Below, piece after piece: positions 1,537-28,992 of a DNA stretch of 43,170 nucleotides. Numbering within the stretch: position 1 is the first letter of the stretch; every line of letters begins with the position of its first letter. The notes below the pieces were generated by a model. It was given only the letters and a program-made list of their open reading frames with translations. It was not told the origin of the DNA and made no database searches. The stretch is from Thermoplasmata archaeon (GTDB taxonomy: Archaea > Thermoplasmatota > Thermoplasmata > Lutacidiplasmatales > UBA184): contig DAHXNZ010000013.1 in NCBI GenBank assembly GCA_027365105.1, positions 1 through 43,170 on the forward strand. Reading direction: 5' to 3'. A program made the translations under genes and the position numbers.

Positions 1537-2841
1537 TCAGCCGACGCGTTCCCAGCGTTCGAGCTTCTGGACCGAGCCGAGGGTCGAGCCGCGCTGGATC
1601 TCCTCGCGGACCCGGTTCTCGTGTTCCATGACGTCCAGGGCCCGGTTGGCGATCTCCTGGGCCCGCTCCCGGGGGACGACCACGACGCCGCTCGCATCCC
1701 CGACGATCCAGTCGCCCGGGCGGACCCGGACGCCGCCGACCACCACCTCGGTCCCGATCTCCCCGTGGCCCTTCGGCTCCCCGGCGTTGGGGCTCACCGA
1801 CCGGCTGAAGACCGGGAAGCCGAGCTCGAGGATCGCGTCGATGTCGCGGGCGGCCCCGTCGATCACGACCGCCGCGACCTGGCGCATATGGGCGCTCCAG
1901 CTGGCGAGCTCGCCCCAGATCGCGGTGGTCCCGCCGCCGGCGTCGACGACGACCACATCGCCCGGGCCGGCCCGATCGATCGCCTCCACCGGCTTCGCCC
2001 AGTCGCCGTCCCGGGTGAGCACTGTCACCGCCGGCCCGGCGACCCGTACGGTCGGGCCCGTGAGCCGGGGGAGGATCCCGTGCATCGCGCCCTGTCGCTG
2101 CATCGCGTCGGTCACATTGGGGGAGGAGACCTTGAGGAACGCCGCCCGGATCTCGGCCCCCGCGTAGCGCCGGAACCGGTCGGAGGTCGCGGCGCTCTGG
2201 GTTTCCATCGACCGCCGGATCTCGCGCGTGGCCTCGACGATCTGCGCGCTCTTGGTGATCGCGCCGCCGACCACGAGGATCTGGGCGCCCGCCCGGGTGG
2301 CGCGCGCGACGCTCTCGCTGGTGAGGCCGCCTGCGACCGCGACCGGGAGGTCGGTCGCCCGGACCAGCGCCTCGAGTTCGGCGAACGGGGTGCGGGCCTG
2401 CATCTGCATGTCGATGCCGACATGCCAGCAGACCGCCGCGGCCCCGAGCTCGGCCGCCCGCCGGCTCCGGGCGACCGGGTCGGCGACGTTGAGCAGGTCG
2501 ACCACGATCTCGGCCCCGTAGAGCTCCCCGCCCCGGACCGCCTCGGCGATCGTGTCGTCGTCGGCGGTGCCGAGGACCGTCACCAGGTCGGCGCCGGCCT
2601 TCGCGGCGATCTCGACCTCGAACGCCCCGGTGTCCATGATCTTCATGTCGGCGACGATCCGGTGTCCACCGAACGTCTTCTTGAGCTCCCGGACCGCGTC
2701 GAGCCCCTCGCTCTTGATGAGGGGGGTGCCCGCCTCGATCCAGTCGGCGCCGCCCTCGACCGCCTCCCGGGCGGCGGCGAGGGCCCGGGAGAGGTTCTCG
2801 AAGTCGAGGGCCACCTGGAGGACCGGACGATCGAGCCGCAT
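1537..2841 (-). CDS. Bifunctional 3-hexulose-6-phosphate synthase / RraA-like protein
   Basis: A 434-residue fusion. Residues about 1-210 are an orotidine-phosphate-decarboxylase-fold domain of the hexulose-6-phosphate synthase type: 'LDFENLSRAL', 'GADWIEAGTPLIKSEG', the catalytic 'ADMKIMDTG' motif, and the phosphate-binding 'AVAGGLTSES' and 'ILVVGGAITKS' loops. Residues about 225-425 are an RraA/HMG-aldolase-like domain with 'DVVVVDAGGGTTAIWGELAS' and 'VVIDGAARDIDAI', including the conserved R-D pair. HPS interconverts hexulose-6-phosphate with ribulose-5-phosphate plus formaldehyde. In archaea lacking the oxidative pentose phosphate route it runs in reverse to supply pentoses. This same fusion is known from many archaea; the role of the RraA part there is unsettled. 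The ATG start lies back to back with the divergent methyltransferase region. Confidence 0.9.
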   Translation of the reverse strand: MRLDRPVLQVALDFENLSRALAAAREAVEGGADWIEAGTPLIKSEGLDAVRELKKTFGGHRIVADMKIMDTGAFEVEIAAKAGADLVTVLGTADDDTIAEAVRGGELYGAEIVVDLLNVADPVARSRRAAELGAAAVCWHVGIDMQMQARTPFAELEALVRATDLPVAVAGGLTSESVARATRAGAQILVVGGAITKSAQIVEATREIRRSMETQSAATSDRFRRYAGAEIRAAFLKVSSPNVTDAMQRQGAMHGILPRLTGPTVRVAGPAVTVLTRDGDWAKPVEAIDRAGPGDVVVVDAGGGTTAIWGELASWSAHMRQVAAVVIDGAARDIDAILELGFPVFSRSVSPNAGEPKGHGEIGTEVVVGGVRVRPGDWIVGDASGVVVVPRERAQEIANRALDVMEHENRVREEIQRGSTLGSVQKLERWERVG

Positions 2842-2860
2842 GGCTCACGCGACGGGGGCG

Positions 2861-2872
2861 TCGGTATTAACG
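2861..2872 (+). promoter_or_regulatory. TATA-like element for the first DNA methyltransferase
   Basis: The only AT-rich patch here (GGTATTAACGCT) is centred about 27 bases before the ATG at 2894. That is the spacing expected for an archaeal TATA box driving a leaderless transcript, and it supports 2894 rather than the upstream in-frame ATG at 2840. Confidence 0.45.
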
Positions 2873-2893
2873 CTCCCGGGGGTTCCCCCGCGG

Positions 2894-3700
2894 ATGCCCG
2901 GTGCGGAGGCCCCGGTCCGGCTCATCGTGGGGGACGCCGCCGAGCTCCCGGGGATTGGGCCCGCGTCGGTCCATCTGGTCGTCACCTCGCCGCCCTACCC
3001 GATGGTCGCCCAATGGGACGGCAGCTTTGCCGCCCAGGGCGCCGACGACTTTGAGAGCATGCACGCGGGGCTGGACCGCGCCTGGCGGGCGTGCCACCGA
3101 GTCCTCGTCCCCGGCGGGATCCTCGCGATCAACATCGGTGACGCCGTCCGCTCCCGGGACGGGGAGTTCCGGCTCTGGCCGAACCATGCCCGGGTCCTGG
3201 CCGGCGCCGCCCGGATCGGCTTGCGGCCCCTGCCCTACATCCTCTGGAAGAAGCCCCTCAACAAGCCGAACGCCTTCCTGGGCTCCGGCTTCCTGCCGCC
3301 CAACGCCTACGTCACCCTCGACTGCGAGTTCCTGCTGCTCTTCCGGAAGGGCGGGCTCCGGCGGTTCGCGGCGCACGACGCGAACCGGTGGGCGAGCCGG
3401 TACACCCGGACCGAGCGGGACCTCTGGTTCTCCCAGGTCTGGAGTGACGTCCGGGGGGTGCGCCAGGCCGGCCCGGACGGCCGGACGGGGGCGTTCCCGC
3501 CCGAGATCCCCCGGCGGCTGATCCGGATGTTCAGCGTCCTCGGCGACACGGTGCTCGATCCGTTCGCGGGCACGGGCACCACGCTCTGGGCGGCCGCGGA
3601 GCTGGGCCGTCGAGCGGTCGGGGTCGAGCGGGACCCTACGGTCCATCGGCGCAGCGCGGCCCGGGGGCAGGCGCGGGGCCTTCGGGTCGTGACGGAGTGA
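2894..3700 (+). CDS. Orphan DNA methyltransferase, N4-cytosine/N6-adenine class (SPPY type)
   Basis: A 268-residue SAM-dependent DNA methyltransferase. The catalytic motif TSPPY is at residues 31-35 and the SAM-binding DPFAGTGTT motif at about 222-230, so the catalytic motif precedes motif I. That is the permuted beta-class order seen in enzymes such as M.PvuII, and serine in S-P-P-Y favours N4-methylcytosine. Lys-Pro-Leu-Asn at about 120 and the VLDPFAGTG core match the family. No restriction endonuclease is adjacent, so it is a solitary methyltransferase in this window. The start is chosen because a TATA-like element lies about 27 bases upstream; 2840 is an alternative. The last 65 bases overlap the 3' end of the convergent gene at 3636-4172. 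Its target sequence cannot be read from the protein. Confidence 0.85.
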   Translation: MPGAEAPVRLIVGDAAELPGIGPASVHLVVTSPPYPMVAQWDGSFAAQGADDFESMHAGLDRAWRACHRVLVPGGILAINIGDAVRSRDGEFRLWPNHARVLAGAARIGLRPLPYILWKKPLNKPNAFLGSGFLPPNAYVTLDCEFLLLFRKGGLRRFAAHDANRWASRYTRTERDLWFSQVWSDVRGVRQAGPDGRTGAFPPEIPRRLIRMFSVLGDTVLDPFAGTGTTLWAAAELGRRAVGVERDPTVHRRSAARGQARGLRVVTE

Positions 3701-4172
3701 CCGGGGCGGGCGGCGCCGCCCGCCGGTCGAGTTCCTCCACGACCGAACGTCGGAGGTAGTCGAGCGCGGGCGTCTCGAGGCGGTCGAGGTGGAGCAGGAG
3801 GTAGTGGAGGTAGACCCGCTCGGGCCGCCGGCTCGGGCCCGGGCCGGCCGGTCCCGCGGGCAGCTGGGCGAGCCGGGCCAGCGTCGGGAGGTGGTGGGTC
3901 GCCCCGGGGTCGTGCGCGGCCCGGCCGACCGCTCCGACGAGCGGGGGGGTGTAGAGATCGACCGGATCGGTCGGGGGGGCCCGGACCGCGGCCTCGGCCG
4001 CGGCCGGCGCACCGCCGTGCCGGCGGGACCGGACATACGGGTGGGTCGGCAGGGCCGGATCCTGGAAGTCGGAGAGCGGGCGCCCCGAGACGTTCTCGAC
4101 GATCGCCTCCAGGCTCCAGCTCTCGCGGCGACGTCGGGGGCGTTCGGGACCTCGCGGCGCCGAGGCGGTCAT
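3636..4172 (-). CDS. Unknown protein, last gene of the VirB4/VirB6-like operon
   Basis: 178 residues, no family recognised. The N-terminal third is basic ('RPRRRRESW'), followed by 'SLEAIVENVSGRPLSDFQDPALPTHPYVR'-type sequence, an alanine/proline-rich middle, and a helical segment near 125-150 ('VYLHYLLLHLDRLETPALDYL') that could pack against a partner; the tail is proline-rich. There is no signal peptide or membrane segment. I chose ATG 4172 over GTG 4190 because GAGGGG sits just before it. It begins 24 bases after the stop of the VirB4-like ATPase, so it is probably co-transcribed and may be a cytosolic accessory of that ATPase. Its 3' end overlaps the convergent methyltransferase by 65 bases, so the exact C-terminus should be treated with caution. 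Confidence 0.55.
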   Translation of the reverse strand: MTASAPRGPERPRRRRESWSLEAIVENVSGRPLSDFQDPALPTHPYVRSRRHGGAPAAAEAAVRAPPTDPVDLYTPPLVGAVGRAAHDPGATHHLPTLARLAQLPAGPAGPGPSRRPERVYLHYLLLHLDRLETPALDYLRRSVVEELDRRAAPPAPVTPSRPEGPAPAPGPRCADGP

Positions 4173-4196
4173 ATCCCCTCGTCGGCCCACGGACCA

Positions 4197-5876
4197 TCAT
4201 AAACCATCGGGTCGACTCGCAGCGACCTTCCGGGCCGGCCCCCCGGTGCCGAGTGCCCGGGTCAGGAACTCGAGCTCGGCGGTGGTGCAGACCATCGCGA
4301 TCGGCAGGTGGGCCTCGCCGAGCCTCAGGAGCCCCTCCGAGTAGCCGGCCTCGGTCGGCAGCCGGGCCCTCGGCAGCCAGTCGATCTCCCCCGACGTGAG
4401 CCCGTAGAACCGGCCGACCGCCTCGGAGACCGGCGCGAGCCGGAGGAGGAGGCTCGCCCGGAGGTTGCGCAGGATCGCCCGCCCGCTCTCGTGCCGGAGG
4501 AAGTCGTCGGGGCTCTGGCTCAGGAGCAGGAACCCTCCGGTGAAGTGGCGCACGTGCCGGACGACCCGGTCGAGGAACTCGGCGGTCGCCGGATGCCGGG
4601 CGAGGAGGTGGGCCTCGTCGACCACCGCGAGCTTCGGCCCCGGGGCATCGCGCAGGAGCCCGTAGGTCCAGTCGAGGACGTAGGCGAGGTGGAACGGGAG
4701 GTGGTTCTCGGGGATCCCCCGGAAGTCGACCGTCAGCACCTCGGCCTGCGGGTCGATGGTCGTCGGCCCGTCGACCGCGGCGAGCGACCCCGACCGGAAG
4801 ATCTCCAATAGGCCGGCGAGCCTCGGCGGCGCCTTCGGGTCGGAGCCGACCAGATCGACCAGATCGCCCAGGGTCGGGATCTCGGGACCGCGCTCGTAGA
4901 GCCGGCTGACCGACGCATCGAGGGCGGCCATCTCCTCGTCGAGGAGGCTCGGGAAGAGGGCGCGCAGGATCGCGCCCACCCGGCCGGCCTTCTCCTTCCG
5001 GTCCCCGCCGGTGGTCACGGGATCGAGCGGGTTCAGTCGGACCCGGGCGTCGGCCCCGAGCCGGATCACCGTGCCGCCGAGCGCCTCGGCCAGGCCGGAG
5101 AACTCGCCGAGCGGATCGAGGATCACGGTCCGGAGCCCCTCGGTCTGCCAGCGGGAGCGCAGCGCCATCAGCGCGGCGGCGAAGCTCTTGCCGGCCCCGG
5201 TCGTTCCGAAGATCCCCCAGGAGTAGCTCGAGTGCCGCCAGCGGTCGACGACCACCGGCGCCGCCTCGCCGAGGGTGAGGCCGAGCAGGATGCCGCCCCG
5301 CTCGAGGACCCCTTCGTCGCCGAGCGGGTAGAAGGCGGCGAGCCCGTCGGTCGGGAGGGTGTGCCAGTAGCCGACCGGCCGGGGCTCGACCCCGGAGAGG
5401 TCGTACGGCCGCAGGGCCTCCCGCACCTGATGGGCGGGGATCCGGGACCGGAACCCGAGCTCGGCGAGCCGGCGCTCGAGGCCGGCCCTCAGCCGCTCGG
5501 CGCCCTCCCGGCCGGGATCGACCGGCACGAACCTGAGGCCGACCTTCCAAAGCTCCTGCTCCCGCCGGGCGATCTGGCCCGCGAGCTCGGCGGAGCTCGC
5601 CCCGATCGACTCGAGCGAGGCGGTCGACGCGCCGGCGCCCCGGGCGAGTTCGGCCTCGGCGACCGCCCGGGCGCTGTGGACCAGCTCGATCGCCCGGTCG
5701 TGGGAGATCCGGTGGAACTCGATCCCGAGATCGATCCGTTCGGTGAGCGGCAGCAGCCGTTCCAGGAAGCCGAACGCCACCCCCCGGGGCAGTTCGTCGA
5801 GCAGCAGGGGGGCCCGGACCCGGGCTCCGATGCGGAGCCACCGGCTCCCCTCGACCGGCGCCGGGGCGCGGCTCAT
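4197..5876 (-). CDS. VirB4/CedB-like type IV secretion (conjugation) ATPase
   Basis: A 559-residue ATPase of the VirB4/HerA-FtsK superfamily, which powers pilus biogenesis and DNA or protein transfer in conjugation systems and, in crenarchaea, DNA import (CedB). Walker A GTTGAGKS is at about 224-231 and Walker B KLAVVDEAHLL at about 415-425. Between them are the usual 'ILDPLGEFSGLAEALGG' and 'NPLDP' blocks. After Walker B come 'LLSQSPDDF' and 'AILRNLRASLLLRL', which match the VirB4 sensor region. Residues 1-200 resemble only the later half of a VirB4 N-terminal domain. The ATG at 5876 overlaps the preceding stop (ATGA), which favours it over an upstream start at 5900. No membrane segment is evident. 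The surrounding genes make a secretion-type role more likely than a HerA DNA-repair role. Confidence 0.85.
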   Translation of the reverse strand: MSRAPAPVEGSRWLRIGARVRAPLLLDELPRGVAFGFLERLLPLTERIDLGIEFHRISHDRAIELVHSARAVAEAELARGAGASTASLESIGASSAELAGQIARREQELWKVGLRFVPVDPGREGAERLRAGLERRLAELGFRSRIPAHQVREALRPYDLSGVEPRPVGYWHTLPTDGLAAFYPLGDEGVLERGGILLGLTLGEAAPVVVDRWRHSSYSWGIFGTTGAGKSFAAALMALRSRWQTEGLRTVILDPLGEFSGLAEALGGTVIRLGADARVRLNPLDPVTTGGDRKEKAGRVGAILRALFPSLLDEEMAALDASVSRLYERGPEIPTLGDLVDLVGSDPKAPPRLAGLLEIFRSGSLAAVDGPTTIDPQAEVLTVDFRGIPENHLPFHLAYVLDWTYGLLRDAPGPKLAVVDEAHLLARHPATAEFLDRVVRHVRHFTGGFLLLSQSPDDFLRHESGRAILRNLRASLLLRLAPVSEAVGRFYGLTSGEIDWLPRARLPTEAGYSEGLLRLGEAHLPIAMVCTTAELEFLTRALGTGGPARKVAASRPDGL

Positions 5877-6238
5877 GGCGCCCCCCGGGGCGTTCCCCAC
5901 CCCCGGGGCAGCGTCGGCACCCCGAGGAAGGCGAGCGGCGCGAGCGCGATCGCGAACCCGAGGGCCCGGACCGGAGCGAGTTCGGGCGGGGCGGCGACGA
6001 GCAGGGCGGCCCCAAGGGCCGCCGGCACCACGACGAGCAGGAGCGGGCCGATCCCGGGCCGGGCGCGGTCCCGGCCGAAGTTCCGGGTGAGCCCGACGAC
6101 GATTGCCAGGATGCCGAGGGTCACCGACGCCGACGCGAGGTAGGGGACCGCGATCGCCAGGAGCCCGATTCCGAGCGACGCGGTCCAGGCGGCCGCCCGC
6201 GGGTGGGCGGCCACGATCCGGGGCAGGAGGTCGGTCAT
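5873..6238 (-). CDS. Small polytopic membrane protein in the type IV secretion-like operon
   Basis: 121 residues with about four hydrophobic segments (near 15-35, 38-51, 64-84 and 90-110) separated by short basic or proline loops such as 'TRNFGRDRARPG'. I do not recognise a family. Start and stop overlap the neighbouring genes by four bases on each side (ATGA), so it is translated as part of a tightly coupled string between the PrgI/VirB3-like gene and the VirB4-like ATPase. That position is where conjugation loci often carry VirB3- or VirB8-like membrane partners, but no sequence motif ties it to either. It could be an inner-membrane platform component. Confidence 0.7.
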   Translation of the reverse strand: MTDLLPRIVAAHPRAAAWTASLGIGLLAIAVPYLASASVTLGILAIVVGLTRNFGRDRARPGIGPLLLVVVPAALGAALLVAAPPELAPVRALGFAIALAPLAFLGVPTLPRGWGTPRGAP

Positions 6239-7023
6239 GGGGGGCTCCCCGCGGCGTCCGACCGCTCCCAGCCGAAGCGTCGGGCGGCCCGGTCCAGCTC
6301 CGCCCCCGTCAGCCTCTGGGGCGACGCCCCGAGCGCCCGGAACCGTTCCTCGACCGCGGTGAGCCGGGCGTCGAGCTGGGCGAGGGCCTCCGGGCCGGCC
6401 TCGGGGGTCCCGAGCGCGAGGTAGGCCCGTCGGTGCCGGCGCCGCTCGCCGAGGAGCCCGACCAGCTCGTCGTACGCGTCGCGCGCGGCGGCCTCTCCTT
6501 CCCCGACGGCGGACCGGCGCGGCCGGAGCGCGCCCGAGGCGATCGGCACGGTCGAGGCGATCAGCACCCCGCCGGCGCCGCAGTCGAGGAGCAGCTCCCG
6601 GTAGACCGCGAACCGCGCGCGGAGCTCGGCGGGGGGCAGGAAGGCGATCGGGGTCCCCTCGGCCTGCACGATCCCGACCCTCCGGCCCGACGGCAGGGTC
6701 AACCAGCGGGGGTCGGCCGCAGGGTCCCGGGGGATCGGGTCGCGCCGGAGCCGCTCATGGCGCCGTCCGCGCCGTCGGGCCCTCAGGTAGAGCGCCGTGT
6801 CGAGCGGGACCCCGTCGATCCGGACCAGCCCGACCAGGAGGCCGATCCCGATCATCGGGAGCCAGCCCCACAGGCCGACGATCGGAATCAGCAGCGCGCC
6901 GCCGAGGGCGTAGGCGAGCCCTTTGACCGCGTCCCGGGCGCTCGGGAACGGGCCGAGCCTGAGCGGCCGGTCGATCCGCTCGGGGAGCCCGATCGGGAGG
7001 CCGACCCCGTTCGCGATCGTCAT
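6235..7023 (-). CDS. PrgI/VirB3-like membrane protein with a soluble VirB4-N-like extension
   Basis: 262 residues. The N-terminal 'PERIDRPLRLGPFP' followed by two adjacent membrane segments (about 30-50 and 53-70) matches the layout of PrgI-family proteins, the VirB3 counterpart in Gram-positive and archaeal type IV systems, which anchor the VirB4 ATPase. Residues about 108-160 ('WLTLPSGRRVGIVQAEG', 'FLPPAELRARFAVYREL', 'GVLIASTVPI') resemble the first strands and helices of VirB4 N-terminal domains. The rest is a charged, probably helical region with R/E-rich stretches. Because the VirB4-like protein downstream lacks that first half, the domain may have been transferred to this gene. The start is one base after the VirB6-like gene's stop; the 3' end overlaps the next gene by four bases. 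PrgI resemblance is moderate; the extension reading is tentative. Confidence 0.65.
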   Translation of the reverse strand: MTIANGVGLPIGLPERIDRPLRLGPFPSARDAVKGLAYALGGALLIPIVGLWGWLPMIGIGLLVGLVRIDGVPLDTALYLRARRRGRRHERLRRDPIPRDPAADPRWLTLPSGRRVGIVQAEGTPIAFLPPAELRARFAVYRELLLDCGAGGVLIASTVPIASGALRPRRSAVGEGEAAARDAYDELVGLLGERRRHRRAYLALGTPEAGPEALAQLDARLTAVEERFRALGASPQRLTGAELDRAARRFGWERSDAAGSPP

Positions 7024-7024
7024 C

Positions 7025-8140
7025 CTACGGCTCCTCCCGCTCGGACGGCGACGGCGGGAACCTGAACCCCGCCGGCGGGCGCTGCGGGACGTGCTTCAGG
7101 AGCTGGACCGCCCCGTGGCCGATCGCCTCGCCGAGCGCGAGCGGCGCGGTCGCCGGGGCCCCCGCGCTCTGGGCCGCGCGGAACGCCCCGGCCCCGATCC
7201 CGCCCCCCGACCCCGACGCGCCGCCGGCCGCTGCGGCCGCGGGGCCGAAGTAGCTCGCCCCGGCGGCGGAGACCAGGGCGAGGCCCCGCTGCGTCGCCGA
7301 GCTCAGCATCGGCCCGACGGCCGGGAAGCCGAAGCTGGTGAGGTTCGTGCCGGCGAGGGAGAGGAGGAAGGGGGAGGAGAGGGCGACCGCCAGGTACGCC
7401 GTCAGCAGGACGACGCTGGGACTCCCGACCGCGAGCTCGAGCGGGATCACGAGGATGCAGGGGAGGAACGCCATCTCGCCGAAGAGGAACCAGGCCCGGC
7501 GCGCGAGCGGGCGGAGCGGCCCGAACGGCGCGACGAGGGTAAAGAGCGGCAGCACGACCAGCAGCACCGCGAGGAGCGCGTCCCGGATCGCGACTGCAAG
7601 CGTCAGGAGGAAGACGCTCGAGAAGAGCACGAAGGCGAGGACGAAGGTCAGCGCCCCATTCCCCCACGAGTACGAGAACATCCCGTAGCCGCCCAGGTTG
7701 ACCCAGCTCTCCCAGGCGCCGCCGTCCCACTGCGCGACCACGGGGTACATCCCGCCCGCCACCGAGAGGATGCCGTCGGCGATCGGGAGGACGAAGTTCG
7801 CCGCGATCACCGCGACGATCATCCGGATCAGGAGCGCCTCGATGTTCGCCCCGTACCGGGCAAGGACCGACCGGGAGAGGTAGGCGATCCCGAGACCGAC
7901 CGCGACCAGGGCGATGCCCGGATCGACGATGTTCGCCAGGAGGAAGGTCGAGAAGCCCGCCGCCCGGGAGAGGAAGTTGGGGCTCGGGACCGGGCCCAGG
8001 AACGGCGGGAAGAGCGCCCCGGTCTGCATCGACGGCACGAAGAGGTGGTCGTAGGTCGGACCGATGATCGCCGCGATCGCGGCCGTCAGGAGGGCAAAGA
8101 GGCCGAAGAGGATCGCCTGGATGACGCCCGAGAGGTCCAT
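7025..8140 (-). CDS. VirB6/TrbL/CedA-like polytopic channel protein
   Basis: 371 residues with about seven membrane segments: residues 6-28, 64-90, 103-125, a long double span around 161-207, 217-240 and 243-265. A glycine/alanine/serine-rich, non-membrane tail follows ('AAAAAGGASGSGGGIGAGAF'-like composition). Many spans in the first two thirds and a small-residue-rich C-terminal tail are typical of VirB6/TrbL inner-membrane channel proteins and of the archaeal import protein CedA. These families conserve topology more than sequence, so context carries most of the weight: it sits directly between a VirB2-like pilin gene (10 bases upstream) and a PrgI/VirB3-like gene (one base downstream). 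GGGAGG lies before the ATG, so ribosome binding should be efficient. It could be another transporter if the operon is misread. Confidence 0.7.
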   Translation of the reverse strand: MDLSGVIQAILFGLFALLTAAIAAIIGPTYDHLFVPSMQTGALFPPFLGPVPSPNFLSRAAGFSTFLLANIVDPGIALVAVGLGIAYLSRSVLARYGANIEALLIRMIVAVIAANFVLPIADGILSVAGGMYPVVAQWDGGAWESWVNLGGYGMFSYSWGNGALTFVLAFVLFSSVFLLTLAVAIRDALLAVLLVVLPLFTLVAPFGPLRPLARRAWFLFGEMAFLPCILVIPLELAVGSPSVVLLTAYLAVALSSPFLLSLAGTNLTSFGFPAVGPMLSSATQRGLALVSAAGASYFGPAAAAAGGASGSGGGIGAGAFRAAQSAGAPATAPLALGEAIGHGAVQLLKHVPQRPPAGFRFPPSPSEREEP

Positions 8141-8150
8141 CGGGTCCTCC

Positions 8151-8546
8151 CTAGACGCCGGTGAGGACCCAGTGGGCGAGCCCGTAGATGAGCCCCGTGA
8201 GGGCGGCGGTGAAGATCAGGGTCCCGATGAGGGCGTCCCGGGCCCGGTCCTTCGCCTGGATCTTCTTCGAGACGTCGGTCGAGAACCAGCTCATCGCCAC
8301 CCGGGCCCAGACCAGCGCGAGGAGACCGGCGCCGGCCACCCCGACCAGCTCGACCAAGCGGTTGATCGCCGCGCTGAAGTTGCCGACCGGCGCGGCCGTG
8401 CCGTTCGAAGCGCCGCCCGAGCCCCCCGAGGCGGCGACGGCCGTTCCGCCCGGGCCGGGGTGGCCCGGGAGGCCGACCAGGAGGGCGGCCCCGATCGTCA
8501 GGAACGCGACAAGGAACGCCCGCCGCCGAGGCCGGAGCCTCCCCAT
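8151..8546 (-). CDS. VirB2/TrbC-like pilin subunit
   Basis: 131 residues. A basic N-terminus (MGRLRPRRRA) leads into a hydrophobic signal-like segment (about 11-26), then a small-residue-rich linker ('GGSGGASNGTAAP'). After it come two membrane helices (about 68-85 and 108-127) separated by a short charged loop ('STDVSKKIQAKDRARD'). Signal peptide, two helices and a positively charged loop is the VirB2/TrbC pilin plan. The same plan is shared by the crenarchaeal CedA1/TedC pilins, whose helices pack in the filament with the basic loop facing the lumen. The ATG at 8546 was chosen because the signal-like sequence starts there and a G-rich stretch precedes it; longer readings add only a proline/arginine-rich segment. 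It is the first gene of the operon. Sequence identity to known pilins cannot be judged by eye. Confidence 0.65.
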   Translation of the reverse strand: MGRLRPRRRAFLVAFLTIGAALLVGLPGHPGPGGTAVAASGGSGGASNGTAAPVGNFSAAINRLVELVGVAGAGLLALVWARVAMSWFSTDVSKKIQAKDRARDALIGTLIFTAALTGLIYGLAHWVLTGV

Positions 8547-8888: not shown

Positions 8889-9545
8889 TCACCCGCGGAT
8901 CGAGATCGCCACGTGCTCCTGGGAGAACGGGGCGAGCCCCGACTCGTGGAGGACGGCGAGACGGGCCGACGTGAGCGTCGAGCGGGCCGACCGCAGGATC
9001 ACCGGCGCCGGCTGACGCTGGGTCACCGACCGGACCTTGAGCATCAGGAGGCCGCGTCCCGAGCGGGCGAGGCAGGCCCGGGCATTCTCGACGAAGATCG
9101 CCGCCTGCTGGCGCTGGGCGACGTCCTGGTAGAGGAAATCGACCCGCCCGACGTCGGCGGCGTACCGCTCGGGCAGCTGCGCGTCGGCCAGGATCGGGAC
9201 GAGGGAGGGACGGTCCCGGCTCAGCCGAAGCAGCGGGGCGAAGGAGGTGGGGCTCTTCTCGACCACATAGACGGTCGCCTCGGGCAGCGCCTCCGCGAGG
9301 TGGCTCGCGGTGGTTCCGTGCGCCCCGCCGAGGTAGAGGACCGATCGGCAGCCGTTCCAGAGTCCCGGGGGCGCAGCGTGCAGCAGGTAGGCGGCGAGCT
9401 TGCTGCGGAACGGATCCCAGGCCCGGTACTCGAGGCCGTCGGCGCGGCGCAGCTCTTCGTCGTGGACCGGCCGGCCGGGCACCGCGTTGCGGGTGTAGAG
9501 CTGCCGCCCCTCCCGGTAGACCCCGGCCCACTCCGTGACGTCCAC
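8889..9545 (-). CDS. flpA: Fibrillarin-like rRNA/tRNA 2'-O-methyltransferase
   Basis: 218 residues, the normal length of archaeal fibrillarin. This is the SAM-dependent methyltransferase of box C/D ribonucleoproteins, which methylates ribose 2'-hydroxyls in rRNA and tRNA with guide RNAs, L7Ae and Nop5. Visible signatures are 'EYRAWDPFRSKLAAYL' (about 39-54), the SAM loop 'VLYLGGAHGTTASHLAE' (about 69-85), 'VYVVEKSPTSFAPLL', and 'VDFLYQDVAQRQQAAIF' with its conserved aspartates. The final block is 'GLLMLKVRSV', which contains the catalytic lysine region. The Nop5 gene that usually sits upstream in archaea is absent here. Instead a RidA gene precedes it by seven bases, suggesting one transcript. 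The TTG/ATG choice at 9545 is supported by the conserved N-terminus. Confidence 0.93.
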   Translation of the reverse strand: MDVTEWAGVYREGRQLYTRNAVPGRPVHDEELRRADGLEYRAWDPFRSKLAAYLLHAAPPGLWNGCRSVLYLGGAHGTTASHLAEALPEATVYVVEKSPTSFAPLLRLSRDRPSLVPILADAQLPERYAADVGRVDFLYQDVAQRQQAAIFVENARACLARSGRGLLMLKVRSVTQRQPAPVILRSARSTLTSARLAVLHESGLAPFSQEHVAISIRG

Positions 9546-10898: not shown

Positions 10899-13800
10899 GT
10901 GCGCCCGGACCTCCCTCGCGCCGGCCCGCGCCGGCGGATGACATGCCTCGTCATCGTCCTGCTTGCGGTCTCGTTGCTCGGGGTTCCCCTCTCGGCCCAC
11001 CCGTCGGTCGGCCCTCCCCTTCGAAGCGCCCCGCTCCACGCCCTCTCCGGCCCGGCCGCCGGGACCTACCCCATCCGGGTCCAGGCGATCGGCCTGCCCA
11101 ACGGGACCCCCTGGTCGCTGGAGATCGGCGGCACCGACTATAGCTTCACCAACAACTCGCCGACCGTCTACGCACCCAACGGCACCTACACCTATCGGCT
11201 GGGATCGGTCAACGGCTGGGGTCCCACCAGTGCGGACGGGGCCCAGAGTTCCGGAACGATCTTCGTCGCGGGACCTCCGAACAAGGTCGTCGTGCCGGGC
11301 CTTGGACTGGGCGTTGGGGCCGACCCGACCGGGGTCGTCTACGTTCCCAATACGACGTCGCTCTACGTCACGAGCGGCTACTTCGACTCGGTCGTCCAGA
11401 TCGCGGTCGGCAGCCTCCCGTGGCACCGGGAGGCCAACTACTCGGTGGGGAGCCTTCCGTCCGCGATCGCCTGGGACGGTGCCAACGGCACGCTCTGGGT
11501 CGCCAACAGTGAAAGCGACAACCTGACGGTCCTCGACCCTTCGACCGGCCAGGTCGTGGTGCCCAGCCTCGGGGTCGGCACCGACCCGGTTGCCCTGGCG
11601 GTCGATCCCCACAACGGCGAAGTCTTCGTGGTGAACGCGGGTTCGGACAACGTGACGGTCGTCAATGGGAGCTCCTACCAGGTCGTCGACTCGGGGATCC
11701 CGGTCGGCTCCGACCCCGTCGCAATCGCTTACGCCCCGTCGACGGGCAATCTGTTCGTCGCCGATGCGGGAGCGAATGCGGTCACGGTCCTCAACGGGTC
11801 GAACGGCTCGGTCGTGGGGAGCCCGATCCCGGTCGGCGTCTCGCCGAGCGGAGTCGCGGCGAATCCCGCCAACGGGACGATCTTCGTCACCAACTCGGGG
11901 AGCTCCAACCTGACGATCCTGAACGGCTCCAACGGACGGGTGGTCGTCCGCAGCGTCGCGGTGGGCGGCGGACCCACCGCCCCGGTCTACGATCCCGCGG
12001 ACGGCGACCTCTACGTGCCGAACCAGGGCACCGACAACCTGACGGTCATCGATCCGGCCCGGGCGCGAACGGTGGTCCCGAGCATCGGTACGGGATCATC
12101 GCCGGACGCTGCGACCTACGTCGCAGGGACGGGATTCATCGTGGTCCTCTCGAGCACGGGCAGCAACCTCTCGGCGATCAACGGGAACGGGGATTTGCGC
12201 TTCGCCTTTCGGCCGGTGCCGCAGTATCCGGTCGAGTGGGCCTCGTCGGGGCTGCCGGCGGGAACCCCCTGGTCGGTCACCTTCGCCGGGACGACCTACC
12301 GCGGGACCGGGGCCACGCTCACGATCCCGGTCTCGAACGGGACCTTTTCCTACACGCTCAATCCCGTCATCGACTACCAGCCGGTCGGCGAGCCCGCTCA
12401 GGGCAACCTGACCGTCGTCGGCGGGCAGTTCTTCACGCCCTCGCCGTCGATCCCGGTGGGATCGGCGCCGAGCGCCGGAGTCTACGACAACCGGACGGGG
12501 AACCTCTACCTCGGCAATTTACAGAACTTCAACCTGAGTGTCGTCAACGCCACGACGTTCCAGACGGTCGCGAGCATCTCCCTCGCCGAGCCGGCCGTAG
12601 CGATGGCGTTCGACCCGACGAACGGGTTCGTCTACGTCGGCTACTCCTACACGGCGTACGTGGGCGTGCTCAACGGCTCCGATAACGCCTGGATCGCGAA
12701 CTTTACCATCGCCCCCGGGGCACTGTCCACCGGAGCCGTCTCGTGGATCACCTACGACCCCGTGAACCAGCTCCTGTATGCGTCGGACACCAGCGGCTAC
12801 ATCGCGGTCTTCAACGGCTCGACCTCCCCGTCGGTGCTGCACGACATCTCGGTCGGCTCCGACCCGGTCGGCTCCGCCGTGGCCCCGTCGACCCATGACC
12901 TCTGGGTGGCGGCCTCCGGATCGGACCAGGTCAACATCGTGGCGCTCAACGGGACCAACGGGACGGTCGAACCGTACTCTCCCCCGTCGTACACTCAGCC
13001 GTGGGCGGTGGCGTCCGATCCCCCGCTCGACCGGATCATCGTTTCGGACGGGAACAACGGCGGGCCCGGCAACGTCACGGTCTACTCGGCGAGCAATCCG
13101 AACGCGTCGTTCAGGTTCGTCGCTCCGGCCGGCCCCTACAGCCTGGGGATCGACCCGGCGGGACAGATGCTCGTGGCGAGCCAGCAGGTGAACGTCCTGA
13201 CGTTGTACTCGGGCGCCCGGTTCGCCTTCAACCAGAGCTGGTCGGGAATCTCCGACTACCCGAGCGCCGTCCTCTACGATCCCCCGGCGCACGCCTTTCT
13301 CGTCGCCAACGCGTATGCCTCGGACTGGACCGTCCTGACCTCCCACACCACCGTCGCCCTCACTTGGGGTCCGGCGCCCGAATATCCGGTCGTCTTCGCG
13401 GAGACCGGTCTGCCCGCCGGGACCGGGTGGCAGGTGACGCTCGCGGGGATGACCGACCGGACGACGAACTCGACGATCCACTTCGAGATCTCGGCCGGGA
13501 TCTTCCCGTATCAGATCCAGGGACCCGCCGGGTACCGCACCGACGGGGAACCCACGACCGGCTGGGTGGTGGTCGCCGGCCGGCCGGCCAACCTCGCTCC
13601 GTCCGGCGTGACGGTTGGCGCGTCGCCCGACGCGGCCGCCTTCGATCCGGCCAACGGGCTCCTGTACGTGGCCAACAGCCTCTCCGACAATCTCACGATC
13701 GTGGACCCCCAGACGATGCGCCCGGTGGGCCCGGGCCTTCCGGTCGGGGCCGCACCGGCGGCGGTCGCCTACGATCCGGTCACCGGCGATCTCGTCGTCG

Positions 13801-16499
13801 CCAACGCCCAGTCGGACAACCTCACCGTGACCGATCCGACCGGGGGGGGCACGGTCGCGAATGTCTCGGTCCAGTACGCGCCGCGGGCCCTCGCCTACGA
13901 CCCCCTCATCCGTTCGATGATCGTGGCCGACTCGGGCTCGAACAACCTCACGATCGTCAGCGGCAGCACCTTCGCGGTCACCCGGAACGTTTCCTCCGGC
14001 GGCTCGGATCCGGTCGCGGTCGTCTACGACCCGACCAGTGCGAGCCTGGTCGTCCTGGATGCCGGATCCGGCCGGGTGGTCCGGCTGGAGGGGGGGAACC
14101 TGACCCCCGAGAACAACGTCAGCCTCACCCTCTCGCCATCGGCCCGGCCGACCGGGCTCGCGGTCGCCAACCAGACCGGGGCCGTCTTCATCACCTCCAA
14201 CTCGACCTACGCCGGCGGCCCCGGTAGTTTGACGGTGCTGAACGCCACCCTCGCCCCGGTCGCGACCGTCGGGCTCGGCGCGGTGCCTCAGGGGCTGGTC
14301 TGGGACCCGGCCCACGGTCAGATCGACATCGCCGAACCGTCGTCCGGCCAGGTCGCCCTCTACGACGGGAACGGTTCGGCGAGCCCCCGTCTGGCCGGCT
14401 CCGTCCGGGTGGGGGCCGGCCCGACGGCGGGCGCCGACATCCCGACGACCCGGGAGGTCGTGATCCTGAACACGGGCGGGCGGAACCTCTCGGTGGTCGG
14501 CCGGGGAGCGCGCCGGGGCATCCTCTGGGGCCCGATCCCGAAGTATCCGGTCGAGTTCCAGGAGTACGGCCTGCCTCCCGGCCGGTCCTGGACCGTCGAT
14601 CTCAACGGCACCCCGTACACCACCCCGAATGCGACGCTGACGGTCGACCTCCCCAACGGGAGCTACCCCTACCGGTTCCTGCCCGTGGCCGGGGCGAGGC
14701 TCCTCGCTCCGGTGGCCGAGGGCACATTGCAGGTCGAAGGAATGCCGGGGCAGGTCCTCGCGTCGGGTTGGGCCGGCGGCGCGTCGCCTTCGGCGGTCGC
14801 CTTCGATCCCCGACTCGGCGCCCTCTTCGTCACCGACCGCGGCAACGATTCGGTCACGATCCTCAACGGGTCGACCGGCCGGGTCGAGGGCTCGGTCCGG
14901 GTGGGGCATGCGCCGTCGGCGATCCTCGATCTCTCCGCGCAGGGCCGGCTCGTCGTCGCGAACTTCGGGTCCGACAACCTGACGGTCCTGAGCGCGGGGA
15001 CCGGGGCTCCGGTGGGATCGCCGATCGCGGTCGGGCCGAACCCGACGGCGCTCTTGTGGGATCCGTCGGCGGGCCTGCTCGTGGTCGCCAACTACGGCGG
15101 ATCGAACCTGACCCTCGTCAACCTGACCGACGGTCGGTCGGTCGGCTCCCTCCCGGTCGGCCTCGATCCGGTCGCGCTGGCCCTCGACCCTTCGACCGGA
15201 TGGGTGTTCGCCGTCAACGCGGGCTCCAACAACGTCACCGGGGTCGATCCGTCGGATCCGACCGCGCCCTCGATCAACGTGCCGGTGGGGGCCGATCCCC
15301 ACGGGATTGTGTTCGACTCCGCGACCGCGCAGTTCTGGATCACCGACTTCGGGGACGGCAACCTCACCCTCCTCAACGGCTCGACCCCCGCGATCGCCCC
15401 CCAGACCCTGCCCTTCGGGGCGTACCCGGACCAGATCACCTTCGATCCGATCAACGGCTATCTCTACCTCACCGCCGGCGTCGGCCACCGGGTCGAGGCG
15501 GTCAACGGGATCTCCCGGGCGGTCGTCGCCTCGAACCTCCTCCCGTCGGAGTCGGTCACCTTCGTGACCTTCCTCCCGGGGAACGGGAACCTGGGCGCGG
15601 TGAATTCGACCGGGGGCACGGTGGCGCTCATCAACGGACTCGGGCCGGTGACCGCCCTGTTCGCGCCCTACCTCTATCCCGTGAGCTTTGTGACGGAGGG
15701 CCGACCGGTCGGGCTTCCGTTCGTCCTCGACCTCAACGCGTCCTCCTATCCGAGCGTCGGTTCGAACCTCACGCTCGAGCTGGGGAACGGGAGCTACCCC
15801 TTCCGGATCGAACCGATCCCGGGATGGTCGGTGACTCCGGCCCAAGGGACGGTGACGATCAACGGGAGCGGCGCGAGGGTCCTGCTCGACTTCGCCCAGA
15901 TCACCTACACCGTGACGGTCGACGAAATCGGGCTCCCGAACGGGACCCTCTGGAGCATCACCTTCAACGGCACGGTCACCTCGACGACCGGCGCCTCGCT
16001 CACCTGGTCGGTGCCCAACGGCAGCGATCCCTACCAGATCGCCGGGGTCGCGGGGTGGGCGACGACCGGCTACGACGGCACGGTGGAGGTCAACGGAACT
16101 CCGGTCACCCTGACGTTCCGATGGACCCAGGTCACCTACCCGGTCGTCGTCACCGTCCAGGGGATCTCGAACGGCACCCTCTGGACCCTCGTGGTCAACG
16201 GGCAACCGTTCACCTCCAACACGACGACCCTCGAGCTGGATCTGCCGAACGGGAGCTACACGCTCACGGTCGTCCCTCCGCCGGGCTACCACCTCCGGGC
16301 CACGCTCGGGAACCTGACGCTCTCCGGTGCGGCCCCATCGGCCCCGGTCGTGGTGGGATTCGTCCCGATCCCGGCACCGCCCTCGGCGACCCCGGTGTGG
16401 CTCTGGGCGGCCGGGGGAGCCGGCGGGGCGATCCTGATCGGCCTGCTGGCCTGGGGCACCGCGCGGCGGCGTCGTACGAAGGGTGGCGGAGTTCCCTGA
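10899..16499 (+). CDS. Giant surface protein: four YVTN beta-propellers alternating with thermopsin-type sandwich modules
   Basis: 1866 residues, exported and probably anchored in the membrane. A hydrophobic signal segment ('CLVIVLLAVSLLGVPLSA') lies at about 16-34; the GTG at 10899 or the ATG at 10938 may be the start. Seven beta-sandwich modules of about 70 residues open with patterns such as 'YPVEWASSGLPAGTPW' and contain 'NGTFSY' or 'NGSYPY'. They begin near residues 56, 444, 830, 1216, 1593, 1669 and 1747. Between the first five lie four YVTN-like propeller regions of about 300-380 residues built from 40-residue repeats ('DPVALAVDPHNGEVFVVNAGSDNVTVV' type). A single membrane helix near 1833-1853 and an R/K tail end the protein. 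N-x-S/T sequons are very frequent, so glycosylation is likely. Such proteins serve in cell-surface coats or adhesion; no enzyme domain is visible. Confidence 0.9.
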   Translation: MRPDLPRAGPRRRMTCLVIVLLAVSLLGVPLSAHPSVGPPLRSAPLHALSGPAAGTYPIRVQAIGLPNGTPWSLEIGGTDYSFTNNSPTVYAPNGTYTYRLGSVNGWGPTSADGAQSSGTIFVAGPPNKVVVPGLGLGVGADPTGVVYVPNTTSLYVTSGYFDSVVQIAVGSLPWHREANYSVGSLPSAIAWDGANGTLWVANSESDNLTVLDPSTGQVVVPSLGVGTDPVALAVDPHNGEVFVVNAGSDNVTVVNGSSYQVVDSGIPVGSDPVAIAYAPSTGNLFVADAGANAVTVLNGSNGSVVGSPIPVGVSPSGVAANPANGTIFVTNSGSSNLTILNGSNGRVVVRSVAVGGGPTAPVYDPADGDLYVPNQGTDNLTVIDPARARTVVPSIGTGSSPDAATYVAGTGFIVVLSSTGSNLSAINGNGDLRFAFRPVPQYPVEWASSGLPAGTPWSVTFAGTTYRGTGATLTIPVSNGTFSYTLNPVIDYQPVGEPAQGNLTVVGGQFFTPSPSIPVGSAPSAGVYDNRTGNLYLGNLQNFNLSVVNATTFQTVASISLAEPAVAMAFDPTNGFVYVGYSYTAYVGVLNGSDNAWIANFTIAPGALSTGAVSWITYDPVNQLLYASDTSGYIAVFNGSTSPSVLHDISVGSDPVGSAVAPSTHDLWVAASGSDQVNIVALNGTNGTVEPYSPPSYTQPWAVASDPPLDRIIVSDGNNGGPGNVTVYSASNPNASFRFVAPAGPYSLGIDPAGQMLVASQQVNVLTLYSGARFAFNQSWSGISDYPSAVLYDPPAHAFLVANAYASDWTVLTSHTTVALTWGPAPEYPVVFAETGLPAGTGWQVTLAGMTDRTTNSTIHFEISAGIFPYQIQGPAGYRTDGEPTTGWVVVAGRPANLAPSGVTVGASPDAAAFDPANGLLYVANSLSDNLTIVDPQTMRPVGPGLPVGAAPAAVAYDPVTGDLVVANAQSDNLTVTDPTGGGTVANVSVQYAPRALAYDPLIRSMIVADSGSNNLTIVSGSTFAVTRNVSSGGSDPVAVVYDPTSASLVVLDAGSGRVVRLEGGNLTPENNVSLTLSPSARPTGLAVANQTGAVFITSNSTYAGGPGSLTVLNATLAPVATVGLGAVPQGLVWDPAHGQIDIAEPSSGQVALYDGNGSASPRLAGSVRVGAGPTAGADIPTTREVVILNTGGRNLSVVGRGARRGILWGPIPKYPVEFQEYGLPPGRSWTVDLNGTPYTTPNATLTVDLPNGSYPYRFLPVAGARLLAPVAEGTLQVEGMPGQVLASGWAGGASPSAVAFDPRLGALFVTDRGNDSVTILNGSTGRVEGSVRVGHAPSAILDLSAQGRLVVANFGSDNLTVLSAGTGAPVGSPIAVGPNPTALLWDPSAGLLVVANYGGSNLTLVNLTDGRSVGSLPVGLDPVALALDPSTGWVFAVNAGSNNVTGVDPSDPTAPSINVPVGADPHGIVFDSATAQFWITDFGDGNLTLLNGSTPAIAPQTLPFGAYPDQITFDPINGYLYLTAGVGHRVEAVNGISRAVVASNLLPSESVTFVTFLPGNGNLGAVNSTGGTVALINGLGPVTALFAPYLYPVSFVTEGRPVGLPFVLDLNASSYPSVGSNLTLELGNGSYPFRIEPIPGWSVTPAQGTVTINGSGARVLLDFAQITYTVTVDEIGLPNGTLWSITFNGTVTSTTGASLTWSVPNGSDPYQIAGVAGWATTGYDGTVEVNGTPVTLTFRWTQVTYPVVVTVQGISNGTLWTLVVNGQPFTSNTTTLELDLPNGSYTLTVVPPPGYHLRATLGNLTLSGAAPSAPVVVGFVPIPAPPSATPVWLWAAGGAGGAILIGLLAWGTARRRRTKGGGVP

Positions 16500-24126: not shown

Positions 24127-25596
24127 CTACGCCGGGACCCGCCCCCCGTCGGGGGAGTCGATCCGGGCGACGGCGGCTTCGGGGTCGGTCCGGTACTCCG
24201 CGAGGTGGCGGCGGAGCGCCGCGTCGGTGAGCGCGGGGAGGCCGGCCAGGGCCCCGAGGAACCGGGCGCGCCGGTCCATCTCCCGGACGATCGCGTCGCG
24301 GCCGACGCCCCGGGAGCTGGCCGCCCGCTCCAAGAGCGCCGAACGCCCCCGGTAGATCCAGCGGTCCCGGTCCCGTTCCCAGGCGAAGACGGGGGAGGCG
24401 AGGAGCTCCGACCCGACCGGGTCGATCCCCTCGATCTCGGTCAGCTGGACGACCCGGCGGACCCGCCGGCCCCCGACCCACTCCGCCCGCTGGAGGACGA
24501 CGACCGGGAGGGCCGTGAGGAGCGCCCGCGGGAGCCGGATCGGCGGGCTTTCGAGCCGGCGGACCAGGGCCGCGACGCTGCCCGCATGGAAGGTGCTGTG
24601 GCAGGGCTGCCCGGTCGCCATCGCCTGGAAGAGGGTGAACGTCTCGGCCCCCCGGACCTCGCCGACGGCGAGGAGCTGCGGGCGCTGGCGCAGCGCCGCG
24701 CGGACCAGGTCGAAGAGATCGATCTCGCCGGCCCTCCGGCCGTCGGCCTCCCGGGGCCCGAGCGAGGCGCGGGTGGCCAGCGCGACCCAGTGGTCGTGGT
24801 CGACTTGGAGTTCGCGCGTCTCCTCAATCGTGACCAGCTTCGCCGACTCGGGGGTGAGCCCCAGGAGGGCGTTCAGGGTCGTGGTCTTGCCGCTCCCGGT
24901 CTCCCCGATGATCATGGTCGAGGCGCCGTCCTCGAGCGCGATCCACAGGTAGGCCGCGACCTCGGCGGAGAGGGTCCCCAGGGCGATGAGGTCGGGCAGC
25001 CGGTAGGAGCGGGCCGGGAACCTCCGGACGGCGAAGGAGCTGCCCCGGGGGCTCACCTCCCGGCCGAGCGTGGCGGCGAGGCGCGCCCCGTTCGGCAGCC
25101 GGCCATCGGCGAGCGGTTCGAACCTCGAGAGGTGCGCCCCGGCCCGGTCGGCCAGCCCGAGGACGAACCGGTCGAGTTCCGCTTCCCGATCGAAGGTGAG
25201 CGCGGTGGCCACCGGGCCGAGCCGCCGGTGGACGATGTAGACCGGGGCGCCGACGCCGTCCGAGGTGATCTCTTCGATCTCGGGATCGCGGAGCAGCACG
25301 TCGATCGGTCCGTAGCCGAGGAGGTCCCGGCGCAGGTAGTACTCCAGCCGGGCCCGCCGATCGGGGTCGTCGAGGTCGCTCCGGCCGGCCGCGATCCGCT
25401 CGAGGATCGCGTGCAGGCTCTCGGGGCCGGGCCGGTCCGGCCCGGCGTCGCCGAGACGGTCGATCAGGGCACGTCGCAGCCCGTCCAGGATCGGGCCCTC
25501 CTCGGGACGGAGCCGGGGCTCCTCGATGCGGTAGAGGGGGCGTCCCCGGGGTCCGGCCGGGTCGATCGAACCGACGGCCTCGGGCTGCGATGCCAT
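24127..25596 (-). CDS. Type II/IV secretion (TadA/PilT-like) ATPase, second of two
   Basis: 489 residues of the secretion-ATPase family that drives type IV pilus, archaellum and Tad assembly. Visible blocks are 'YYLRRDLLGYGPIDVLLRDPEIEEITSDG' (read as GYGPIDVLLRDPEIEEI), Walker A GETGSGKTT near 231-239, the Asp-box 'LVTIEETRELQ', Walker B 'LLAVGEVRGAETF', and His-box residues in 'CHSTFHAGS'. All catalytic elements appear intact, so this is an active ATPase rather than a relic. The ATG at 25596 is two bases after the stop of the second TadC-like gene, so it is the last gene of the operon. It is distinct in sequence from the ATPase at 27424, suggesting a division of labour such as extension versus retraction. 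Confidence 0.9.
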   Translation of the reverse strand: MASQPEAVGSIDPAGPRGRPLYRIEEPRLRPEEGPILDGLRRALIDRLGDAGPDRPGPESLHAILERIAAGRSDLDDPDRRARLEYYLRRDLLGYGPIDVLLRDPEIEEITSDGVGAPVYIVHRRLGPVATALTFDREAELDRFVLGLADRAGAHLSRFEPLADGRLPNGARLAATLGREVSPRGSSFAVRRFPARSYRLPDLIALGTLSAEVAAYLWIALEDGASTMIIGETGSGKTTTLNALLGLTPESAKLVTIEETRELQVDHDHWVALATRASLGPREADGRRAGEIDLFDLVRAALRQRPQLLAVGEVRGAETFTLFQAMATGQPCHSTFHAGSVAALVRRLESPPIRLPRALLTALPVVVLQRAEWVGGRRVRRVVQLTEIEGIDPVGSELLASPVFAWERDRDRWIYRGRSALLERAASSRGVGRDAIVREMDRRARFLGALAGLPALTDAALRRHLAEYRTDPEAAVARIDSPDGGRVPA

Positions 25597-25598
25597 CG

Positions 25599-26528
25599 CT
25601 AGAGCCCTCCCGGGAGCCCCACCAGGAGCCTCAGCACCAGCCAGCCGACGAGCAGCATGACCGTCGCGTGGGGCAGACCGAGGACCGCCCTGCCCGAGGT
25701 GAGGACCCCGACCATGAGGCCGTCCCCGACGGCATGGATGAGGACCGCCGCAAAGAGCGCCAGGAGGAGCGGCGCCGCGACGCCGGTCGCGATCGACGGG
25801 AACGGGATCCCGGGGGTCCCGGCGAGGGGCGAGGCGACCGACAGCTCCGGCAGGAAGAGATGGACGAGGATGAAGATCGTGAGCAGGAAGACGAAGAAGG
25901 CCACGTAGACGACGGCGACGTAGGTCGACATCGCGGCCCGGCGCGCCGCCCGGGCCCGCTCCGCCTCCCGGGCCTGCTCGGTCACGAGGGAGAGCACATC
26001 GACCGTGTGGCCGCCGACCCGGTCGCAGCGGACGAGCACCGAGACGGTCTGGCGCACCCGCGGCGTCGGCACCCGGCGGGCCCACTCCCCGAGGGCCTCG
26101 TCGACCGGGACGCCCCAGCGGATCTGCCGGGCGATCCGCCGCACCTCGCCGGTGAGCGCACCGAACTCCCGATCCCCCGCCGCGACGAGCGCCGCGGAGA
26201 GCCCGAGACCGGCCCGACCCGAATCGGTGAGGTCCCTCAGGAGGTCGGGCAGCCGGTGGTCCATCGCCTCGATCCGGCGCTGGGCGAGGGCCGCCGAGAA
26301 GCCGTACGGCCCGATGAGGGCGAGGAGGGCCAGGACGACCAGGTCGAACGCCTCGGCGGTCGGGAGGCCGAACGCGGCGCGGCCCGAGAGGAGCCAGAGC
26401 GCCAGCGCCGCCAGGCCCGCCGCCGCGGCCGCCCCGACGGCCCGGATCGCCCGCACGCCGTCGGGGCGGGGGAGACCGAGGGCCGGGCGGATTCCTCGCC
26501 GGTGGACGGGCGCGACCGCCCCGGTCAT
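25599..26528 (-). CDS. TadC/PilC-like pilus platform protein, second of two
   Basis: 309 residues. Two membrane segments occur near 32-50 and 57-78 and two to three near the C-terminus (about 205-230, 255-280 and 284-305). Between them is a cytosolic helical domain with 'RLPDLLRDLTDSGRAGLGL' and 'FGALTGEVRRIARQIRWG', the GspF/TadC signature that contacts the secretion ATPase. 'LVTEQAREAERARAARRAA' precedes the last helices, as usual. Its ATG overlaps the first TadC-like gene's stop (ATGA), so the pair is translationally coupled and probably forms a heteromeric TadB/TadC-type platform in the membrane. Confidence 0.85.
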   Translation of the reverse strand: MTGAVAPVHRRGIRPALGLPRPDGVRAIRAVGAAAAAGLAALALWLLSGRAAFGLPTAEAFDLVVLALLALIGPYGFSAALAQRRIEAMDHRLPDLLRDLTDSGRAGLGLSAALVAAGDREFGALTGEVRRIARQIRWGVPVDEALGEWARRVPTPRVRQTVSVLVRCDRVGGHTVDVLSLVTEQAREAERARAARRAAMSTYVAVVYVAFFVFLLTIFILVHLFLPELSVASPLAGTPGIPFPSIATGVAAPLLLALFAAVLIHAVGDGLMVGVLTSGRAVLGLPHATVMLLVGWLVLRLLVGLPGGL

Positions 26529-28986: not shown

Positions 28987-28992
28987 GGGCGA

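Follow-up and report, generated by a model that had tools for sequence, protein, structure and literature searches.

Why a soil archaeon should keep a set of conjugation-type genes in its chromosome is the question raised by six tightly packed minus-strand genes within positions 3636-8546 of a 43,170-nucleotide (nt) stretch of DNA, here called the window. The window (GC ~65-77%) sits on contig C44 of a 1.83 Mb, 97.5% complete genome (G000), that of a soil archaeon of the UBA184/Candidatus Lutacidiplasmatales group of Thermoplasmatota. Judged from their sequences, the genes make up a minimal type IV secretion system (T4SS) of the VirB2/B3/B4/B6 type, with a candidate for each of the four components. 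In the UBA184 group, the operon is chromosomally fixed, vertically inherited, and under purifying selection. The explanation that we favour, with moderate confidence, is that of a domesticated apparatus whose most likely function is the transfer of DNA from cell to neighbouring cell, like that of the Ced and Ted systems in Thermoproteota.

Parts of the apparatus

All six open reading frames proposed by an earlier sequence-only reading are present where it placed them, in the order pilin, VirB6-like protein, PrgI/VirB3-type protein, small membrane protein, VirB4, and a conserved protein of unknown family (c184). The successive spacings from the pilin are 10 nt, 1 nt, two overlaps of 4 nt each, and ~6-24 nt. 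A matching gene order in ~29 related genomes, together with a virB4 dN/dS of ~0.19 (0.066/0.342) against an 89%-identical copy, indicates that the arrangement is not due to chance.

The best Pfam family of the pilin is T4SS_pilin, for which the match of the window copy (0.0014) lies under the curated cut-off; 13 of 28 pilin orthologues match this family, the best of them at 5.4e-5. Moreover, the NCBIfam family NF045849 (pilin-like conjugal transfer protein) is matched by 18 of 28 pilins in the class-wide set (best 2.4e-6), and the motif SWFSTDVSKKIQAKDRARDA is conserved across orthologues. The proposed two-helix pilin with a signal segment is borne out. At a further locus, L192 (7826-12685), five successive pilin-domain genes are found, four of which (320-405 amino acids, aa) have long N-terminal extensions, like minor or tip pilins.

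The other parts could be compared with those of apparently genuine conjugative elements (L060-L067), which are also carried by some genomes of genera g2 and g4 (the genera of the order are labelled g1-g7). These elements encode a pilin (T4SS_pilin 9.5e-7), a 492-aa protein in the VirB6 position, and an 877-aa PrgI-VirB4 fusion, as well as an OB-fold-like protein and an 1147-aa VirD4/TraG-type protein. They share with the window operon a homologous VirB6-position protein, a VirB3-VirB4 unit, and a T4SS_pilin protein, and differ from it in the single chain of their VirB3-VirB4, in the possession of the VirD4/TraG-type and OB-fold-like proteins, and in their separate VirB4 clade. Comparison of the two pilin profiles gave a probability of 6% and E=0.006, a weak result with an element profile of two sequences. 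At L066 (196-4575), the element has as neighbours an integrase-like gene, genes for three KaiC-like proteins, and one for a 267-aa fragment similar to the last part of a VirD4-like ATPase; the element may have integrated into a conserved KaiC/VirD4-like locus.

The VirB6-like protein belongs to no Pfam family, and its profile found nothing significant in the PDB, a solved VirB6 included; the best hit, the R388 VirB2 pilin TrwL, is suggestive (E=0.27). Its structure model (pLDDT 68.7, pTM 0.37) is too weak to use and gave no fold match. The profile does match the VirB6-position protein of the sister-genus elements (E=5e-11, 97%), and this homology supports the polytopic channel protein proposed earlier. 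Neither the pilin nor VirB4 was placed in unrelated transporter families.

The VirB4 profile finds the VirB4 structure 4ag5 at 3.2e-34, ranking above HerA-type helicases, and the nucleotide-binding motifs are intact. The alignment of the window VirB4 to the element fusion spans residues 318-845 (E=5e-71), in keeping with the intact ATPase first described, and that of the 262-aa protein spans residues 10-291 (E=1.4e-11). It can be deduced from these alignments that the VirB3-VirB4 unit, one chain in the elements, consists here of two pieces, between which the gene of the small membrane protein is inserted. When the 262-aa protein was modelled with AlphaFold (pLDDT 84.6), Foldseek ranked R388 TrwK/VirB4 first among the matches (probability 1.00, E=3e-3, with a low TM-score), and the PrgI family is matched weakly by 6 of 25 orthologues. 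The protein had been read as a PrgI-like protein of two helices; the VirB3-type hairpin stands, but it is not the whole protein, the C-terminal part being the first VirB4 domain.

In 26 of 29 relatives, the operon begins with an additional gene immediately upstream of the pilin; in most cases, the two genes overlap by 4 or 25 nt. The additional gene encodes a large surface protein of 530-1800 aa with a signal segment, a PKD/Ig-like ectodomain, one late transmembrane (TM) helix, and, at the C-terminus, a cytoplasmic stretch that looks like a winged helix according to weak Pfam matches and inspection of the residues. A 744-aa Ig-domain protein is encoded at the corresponding position of L192.

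Chromosomal fixation and spread in the class

In a survey of 106 genomes of the order, VirB4 was found in 85, mostly in single copy. One genome, G037, has two VirB4 loci (L002 and L068), 89% and 58% identical to the window VirB4; either the bin contains another strain as well, or the locus is truly duplicated. In genera g1, g6, and g7, of which 21 loci were compared, the operon lies between fibrillarin/YjgF and a hexulose-phosphate-synthase-like gene; the latter flank is present at 19 loci (76-86% identical) and the fibrillarin flank at 18, the other three being contig ends. The gene order of the operon is kept with different flanks in genera g2-g5. The VirB4 tree tracks genera and families and sets the element copies apart as a clade with a support of 100; g1 is not one clade in this tree, as g6 and g7 are nested inside it. 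The conserved flanks, the taxonomy-like tree, and the dN/dS collectively point to vertical inheritance under selection. The synteny check suggested by the sequence-only reading thus yielded housekeeping genes on the flanks, and no relaxase, VirD4, or integrase gene was found beside the apparatus in the flanks of the 21 loci or in the window gene lists. The absence of relaxase and VirD4, about which that check was to ask in relatives, holds for the syntenic g1, g6, and g7 loci; in family f13, a VirD4-like gene stands directly downstream of VirB4 within the operon.

In a phylum-level survey, pilin profile matches were obtained in 59 of 390 sampled genomes, including those of three further families (f5, f6, and f13). 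At 20 loci of these families, the matches to the pilin, VirB6, and VirB4 profiles come in this sequence almost throughout, except at L199, whose contig stops before VirB4, and at L200, which gave no VirB6 match. VirB3 and VirB4 are fused in some members of f6 and split in others, and the f6 pilins (~85-95 aa) start near the first helix and hence lack a signal segment of the Lutacidiplasmatales type. Family f5 includes a DHVE2 contig (G428, L148), and f6 includes CP009479.1, clone ASS_A1 (G325, L156). We take G201 and G198 to be, probably, Thermoplasma acidophilum and T. volcanium, G138 to be Aciduliprofundum boonei, and G168 and G153 to be Ferroplasma; G195 is presumably Cuniculiplasma divulgatum S5, since its locus positions fit the gene numbers CSP5_1185-1189 and CSP5_0791. 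Cultured Thermoplasma, Ferroplasma, Cuniculiplasma, and Aciduliprofundum are thus probably among the carriers. The f5 copy of A. boonei may be mobile, because an integrated conjugative element (ICE) has been reported there (PMC3158045) and a second genome of that genus, G171, is without the pilin. On a contig labelled WOR-3 bacterium (L147), the VirB4 falls inside the DHVE2/Aciduliprofundum clade, owing to mis-binning or gene transfer.

Substrate of the apparatus and known systems

If the operon works in DNA exchange, the VirB2-type pilin would assemble into a tube, the VirB6-type protein would form the membrane pore and platform, and the VirB3-type hairpin and the VirB4 domain attached to it would connect the VirB4 ATPase ring to the pore, the 262-aa protein and the separate VirB4 together rebuilding the unit that is a single chain in conjugative elements. 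The energy for building the pilus and for the passage of DNA would come from ATP hydrolysis, the substrate may be supplied by an unlinked VirD4-like ATPase, and the large surface protein of most relatives may grip or sense the partner cell. In favour of this explanation are the homology of the components, the operon conserved between housekeeping genes in three genera, the distribution and tree of VirB4, the recurrence of the gene order in three other families of the class, the purifying selection on virB4, and the negative result for the relaxase family PF03432 in G000, which is of little weight since archaeal relaxases are largely unknown (PMC3158045, PMC12857230). Moreover, DNA exchange is what the closest characterised systems with such a minimal, chromosomally fixed set carry out (PMC9905601, PMC11868833).

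Several points weigh against it. DNA as the substrate, like pilus formation and cell-to-cell exchange, is what we infer. Nor is the operon present everywhere, as it is missing from several genomes of the genus that are well completed. The surface-protein gene is absent from the 5′ side of the pilin in the window and at L031 and L042 (the contig of L053 stops too early), and a search of G000 for an orthologue elsewhere gave no clear one. Two pilin profiles, run against PDB sequences, did not match CedA1, TedC, or any other solved pilin. Moreover, NurA (PF09376) was not found in the 97.5% complete G000, in which the controls were detected and a HerA-like gene is present; production of substrate by HerA-NurA is part of the published Ced model, not of a strict definition. 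Finally, VirD4-like genes make the export of proteins or effectors also possible.

The Ced system of Sulfolobales and relatives (CedA, CedA1, CedA2, and CedB; CedD and CedE) shares with the operon a chromosomal pilin, a polytopic pore, a VirB4/HerA-type ATPase, and the absence of a relaxase at the locus. The N-terminal region of VirB4 is divided there too, between CedB and CedD (PMC11868833), but differently: here, a VirB3-type hairpin bears the first VirB4 domain. According to the same 2025 paper, archaea have no VirB3 homologues, whereas a VirB3/PrgI-type component is now seen in one. Further differences from Ced are the lack of a detected sequence relation to CedA1 and of NurA. The Ted system of Thermoproteales (TedA, TedB, and TedC) has a signal-segment pilin, a pore, and a VirB4-type ATPase close together on the chromosome (PMC9905601), as here; it differs in that the solved TedC pilin shows no similarity in profile searches and that Ted loci hold HerA, ParA/MinD, and Rad50 genes, none of which is in the window locus. 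The Ced and Ted pilins are dissimilar in sequence even to each other (PMC9905601). The proposal of a Ced/Ted-like domesticated apparatus outside the Crenarchaeota stands as regards the minimal set, its fixation, and its vertical descent; a pilin match to CedA1 or TedC and NurA were not found. Ced and Ted are the closest systems in working, but, with no sequence relation seen to their pilins, membership in either is not claimed.

Delivery of proteins is the main rival, although we consider it unlikely. The operon would then export effectors, toxins, or surface proteins to neighbours or the medium, with a VirD4-like ATPase as the substrate receptor. No VirD4 gene had been seen, which is true of the locus; elsewhere in G000, however, contig C115 encodes an 876-aa VirD4/HerA-superfamily-like protein (C115:8046-10676), in which Pfam recognises no domain and whose locus, beside a glyA-like gene, is conserved in the genus. 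Another type of VirD4/HerA-superfamily ATPase, that of the KaiC-PAC2 locus, occurs in most family genomes and not in G000. At L169 (3423-8875) and its orthologues L161, L162, L165, L166, and L170, such an ATPase, three KaiC-like proteins, and a PAC2 protein are encoded in a row. Across the class, VirD4-like genes are associated with the operon, being present in 12 of 17 genomes with it and in 4 of 18 without it (p=0.007, uncorrected for kinship), which accords with protein export; within the family, p for an association with the presence of VirB4 is 0.0045 over all 103 genomes and 0.08 among the well-completed ones, and no association is claimed. Furthermore, relaxase-less T4SSs of Proteobacteria mostly export proteins (PMC3158045). 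Speaking against protein delivery, the operon and its conserved flanks contain no candidate effector or immunity genes, and the known minimal chromosomal systems of archaea with such a set exchange DNA (PMC9905601).

A conjugation-type pilus serving attachment or contact only, with no passage of macromolecules, appears less probable again. It would suit the pilin, the most conserved non-enzymatic part, and the PKD/Ig-like repeats in the first gene product of most relatives, but not the retention under selection of a VirB4 with intact motifs and of a VirB6-type pore; in addition, a type IV pilus locus able to serve attachment is recognised by its ATPase in 98 of the 106 genomes of the order. 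This locus, found in the window at 24127-29934 (-), comprises two homologous secretion ATPases, two TadC/FlaJ-like membrane proteins, and a pilin-like protein. Its ATPase gene often shares a contig with virB4 at a distance of 20-110 kb, which reads as regional synteny, and a coupling of the two loci was rejected. An ordinary ICE or its remnant is very improbable, for although the operon is homologous to the sister-genus elements and f5 copies may be mobile like the ICE of A. boonei (PMC3158045), a plain conjugative element was rejected for the UBA184 group on the housekeeping flanks conserved across three genera, the syntenic loci without VirD4, relaxase, or integrase, and the VirB4 tree with its own clade of element copies, and the remnant is weakened by the purifying selection on virB4.

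Neighbouring genes and meaning for the class

The features of the locus are collected in Table 1. For virB4, the start at ATG 5876 is favoured over GTG 5900 because it yields a 4-base ATGA overlap. A hydrophobic open reading frame of similar size is present at the place of the 121-aa membrane protein in nearly all family loci, with no conservation of sequence. The c184 gene lies directly 3′ of virB4 in genera g1, g6, g7, and g5 and is close by or relocated in others. Neither protein was assigned to a family in a Pfam search of the window proteins.

Table 1. Genes of the operon and its flanks in the window.
Feature	Position	Strand	Remarks
VirB2-type pilin, 131 aa	8151..8546	-	Signal segment, two hydrophobic helices, basic loop between (SWFSTDVSKKIQAKDRARDA)
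VirB6-type polytopic membrane protein, 371 aa	7025..8140	-	~six TM helices; profile match to element VirB6-position protein
PrgI/VirB3-type hairpin fused to first VirB4 domain, 262 aa	6235..7023	-	Alignment to element fusion; Foldseek
Small membrane protein, 121 aa, three to four TM helices	5873..6238	-	4-nt overlap with each neighbour
VirB4 ATPase, 559 aa (567 if GTG at 5900)	4197..5876	-	4ag5 profile match
Conserved protein c184, 178-184 aa, probably soluble	3636..4172/4190	-	Directly after virB4
Fibrillarin gene (flank, not part of the system)	8889..9545	-	Fibrillarin 1.8e-50 (Pfam)
Hexulose-phosphate-synthase-like gene (flank, not part of the system)	1537..2841	-	Name from reading the sequence, no family search

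An N4/N6 DNA methyltransferase gene (Pfam 2.4e-33; window ~2840-3700, +) faces c184 and overlaps its end, and retains its place next to the operon at the loci of genera g1, g6, and g7; the marking of DNA by this enzyme may be linked to DNA exchange. A 1853-aa secreted protein with many YVTN-like beta-propeller repeats and a C-terminal TM helix is encoded nearby (10938-16499, +). The tRNA-Ser (cga) called by ARAGORN at 5431-5510 (-), inside the virB4 frame, is probably a false positive in GC-rich sequence.

Parts of such systems have been recorded before. PMC3158045 pointed to chromosomal VirB4s in archaea, often accompanied by a coupling protein, and a VirB4 and membrane-protein cluster with an unlinked VirD4-family ATPase, most likely the same system, was listed in 2016 among type IV secretion components of Cuniculiplasma (CSP5_1185-1189 and CSP5_0791; PMC5155288), with no pilin, role, chromosomal fixation, or class-wide spread named. 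In the paper on the order (PMC9287336), neither VirB nor secretion, conjugation, or pili are mentioned. No paper was found on class-wide conservation, the VirB3-VirB4 split, or the VirB3-type piece, in a search outside which preprints and most subscription journals lay. New here are the chromosomal fixation, the recurrence in other families, the VirB3-VirB4 split, and the surface protein as first gene product in most relatives.

A bolder proposal, offered tentatively and at somewhat less than even confidence, is that of a machine for DNA exchange, inherited vertically throughout the class Thermoplasmata, independent of Ced and Ted and with its own VirB3-VirB4 split, in whose soil lineage the surface protein with its cytoplasmic winged helix would couple partner contact to gene control, and which would be the route of the high recombination in Ferroplasma. 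In 2023, the authors of the Ced and Ted work wrote that, to their knowledge, no other organisms had been reported to have domesticated a conjugation apparatus for transferring DNA (PMC9905601); an equivalent gene set appears to be fixed across much of another archaeal class. Natural populations of Ferroplasma recombine heavily (reviewed in PMC2704941), and no mechanism was found named in the literature. The operon provides a testable four-gene candidate for DNA exchange in Ferroplasma.

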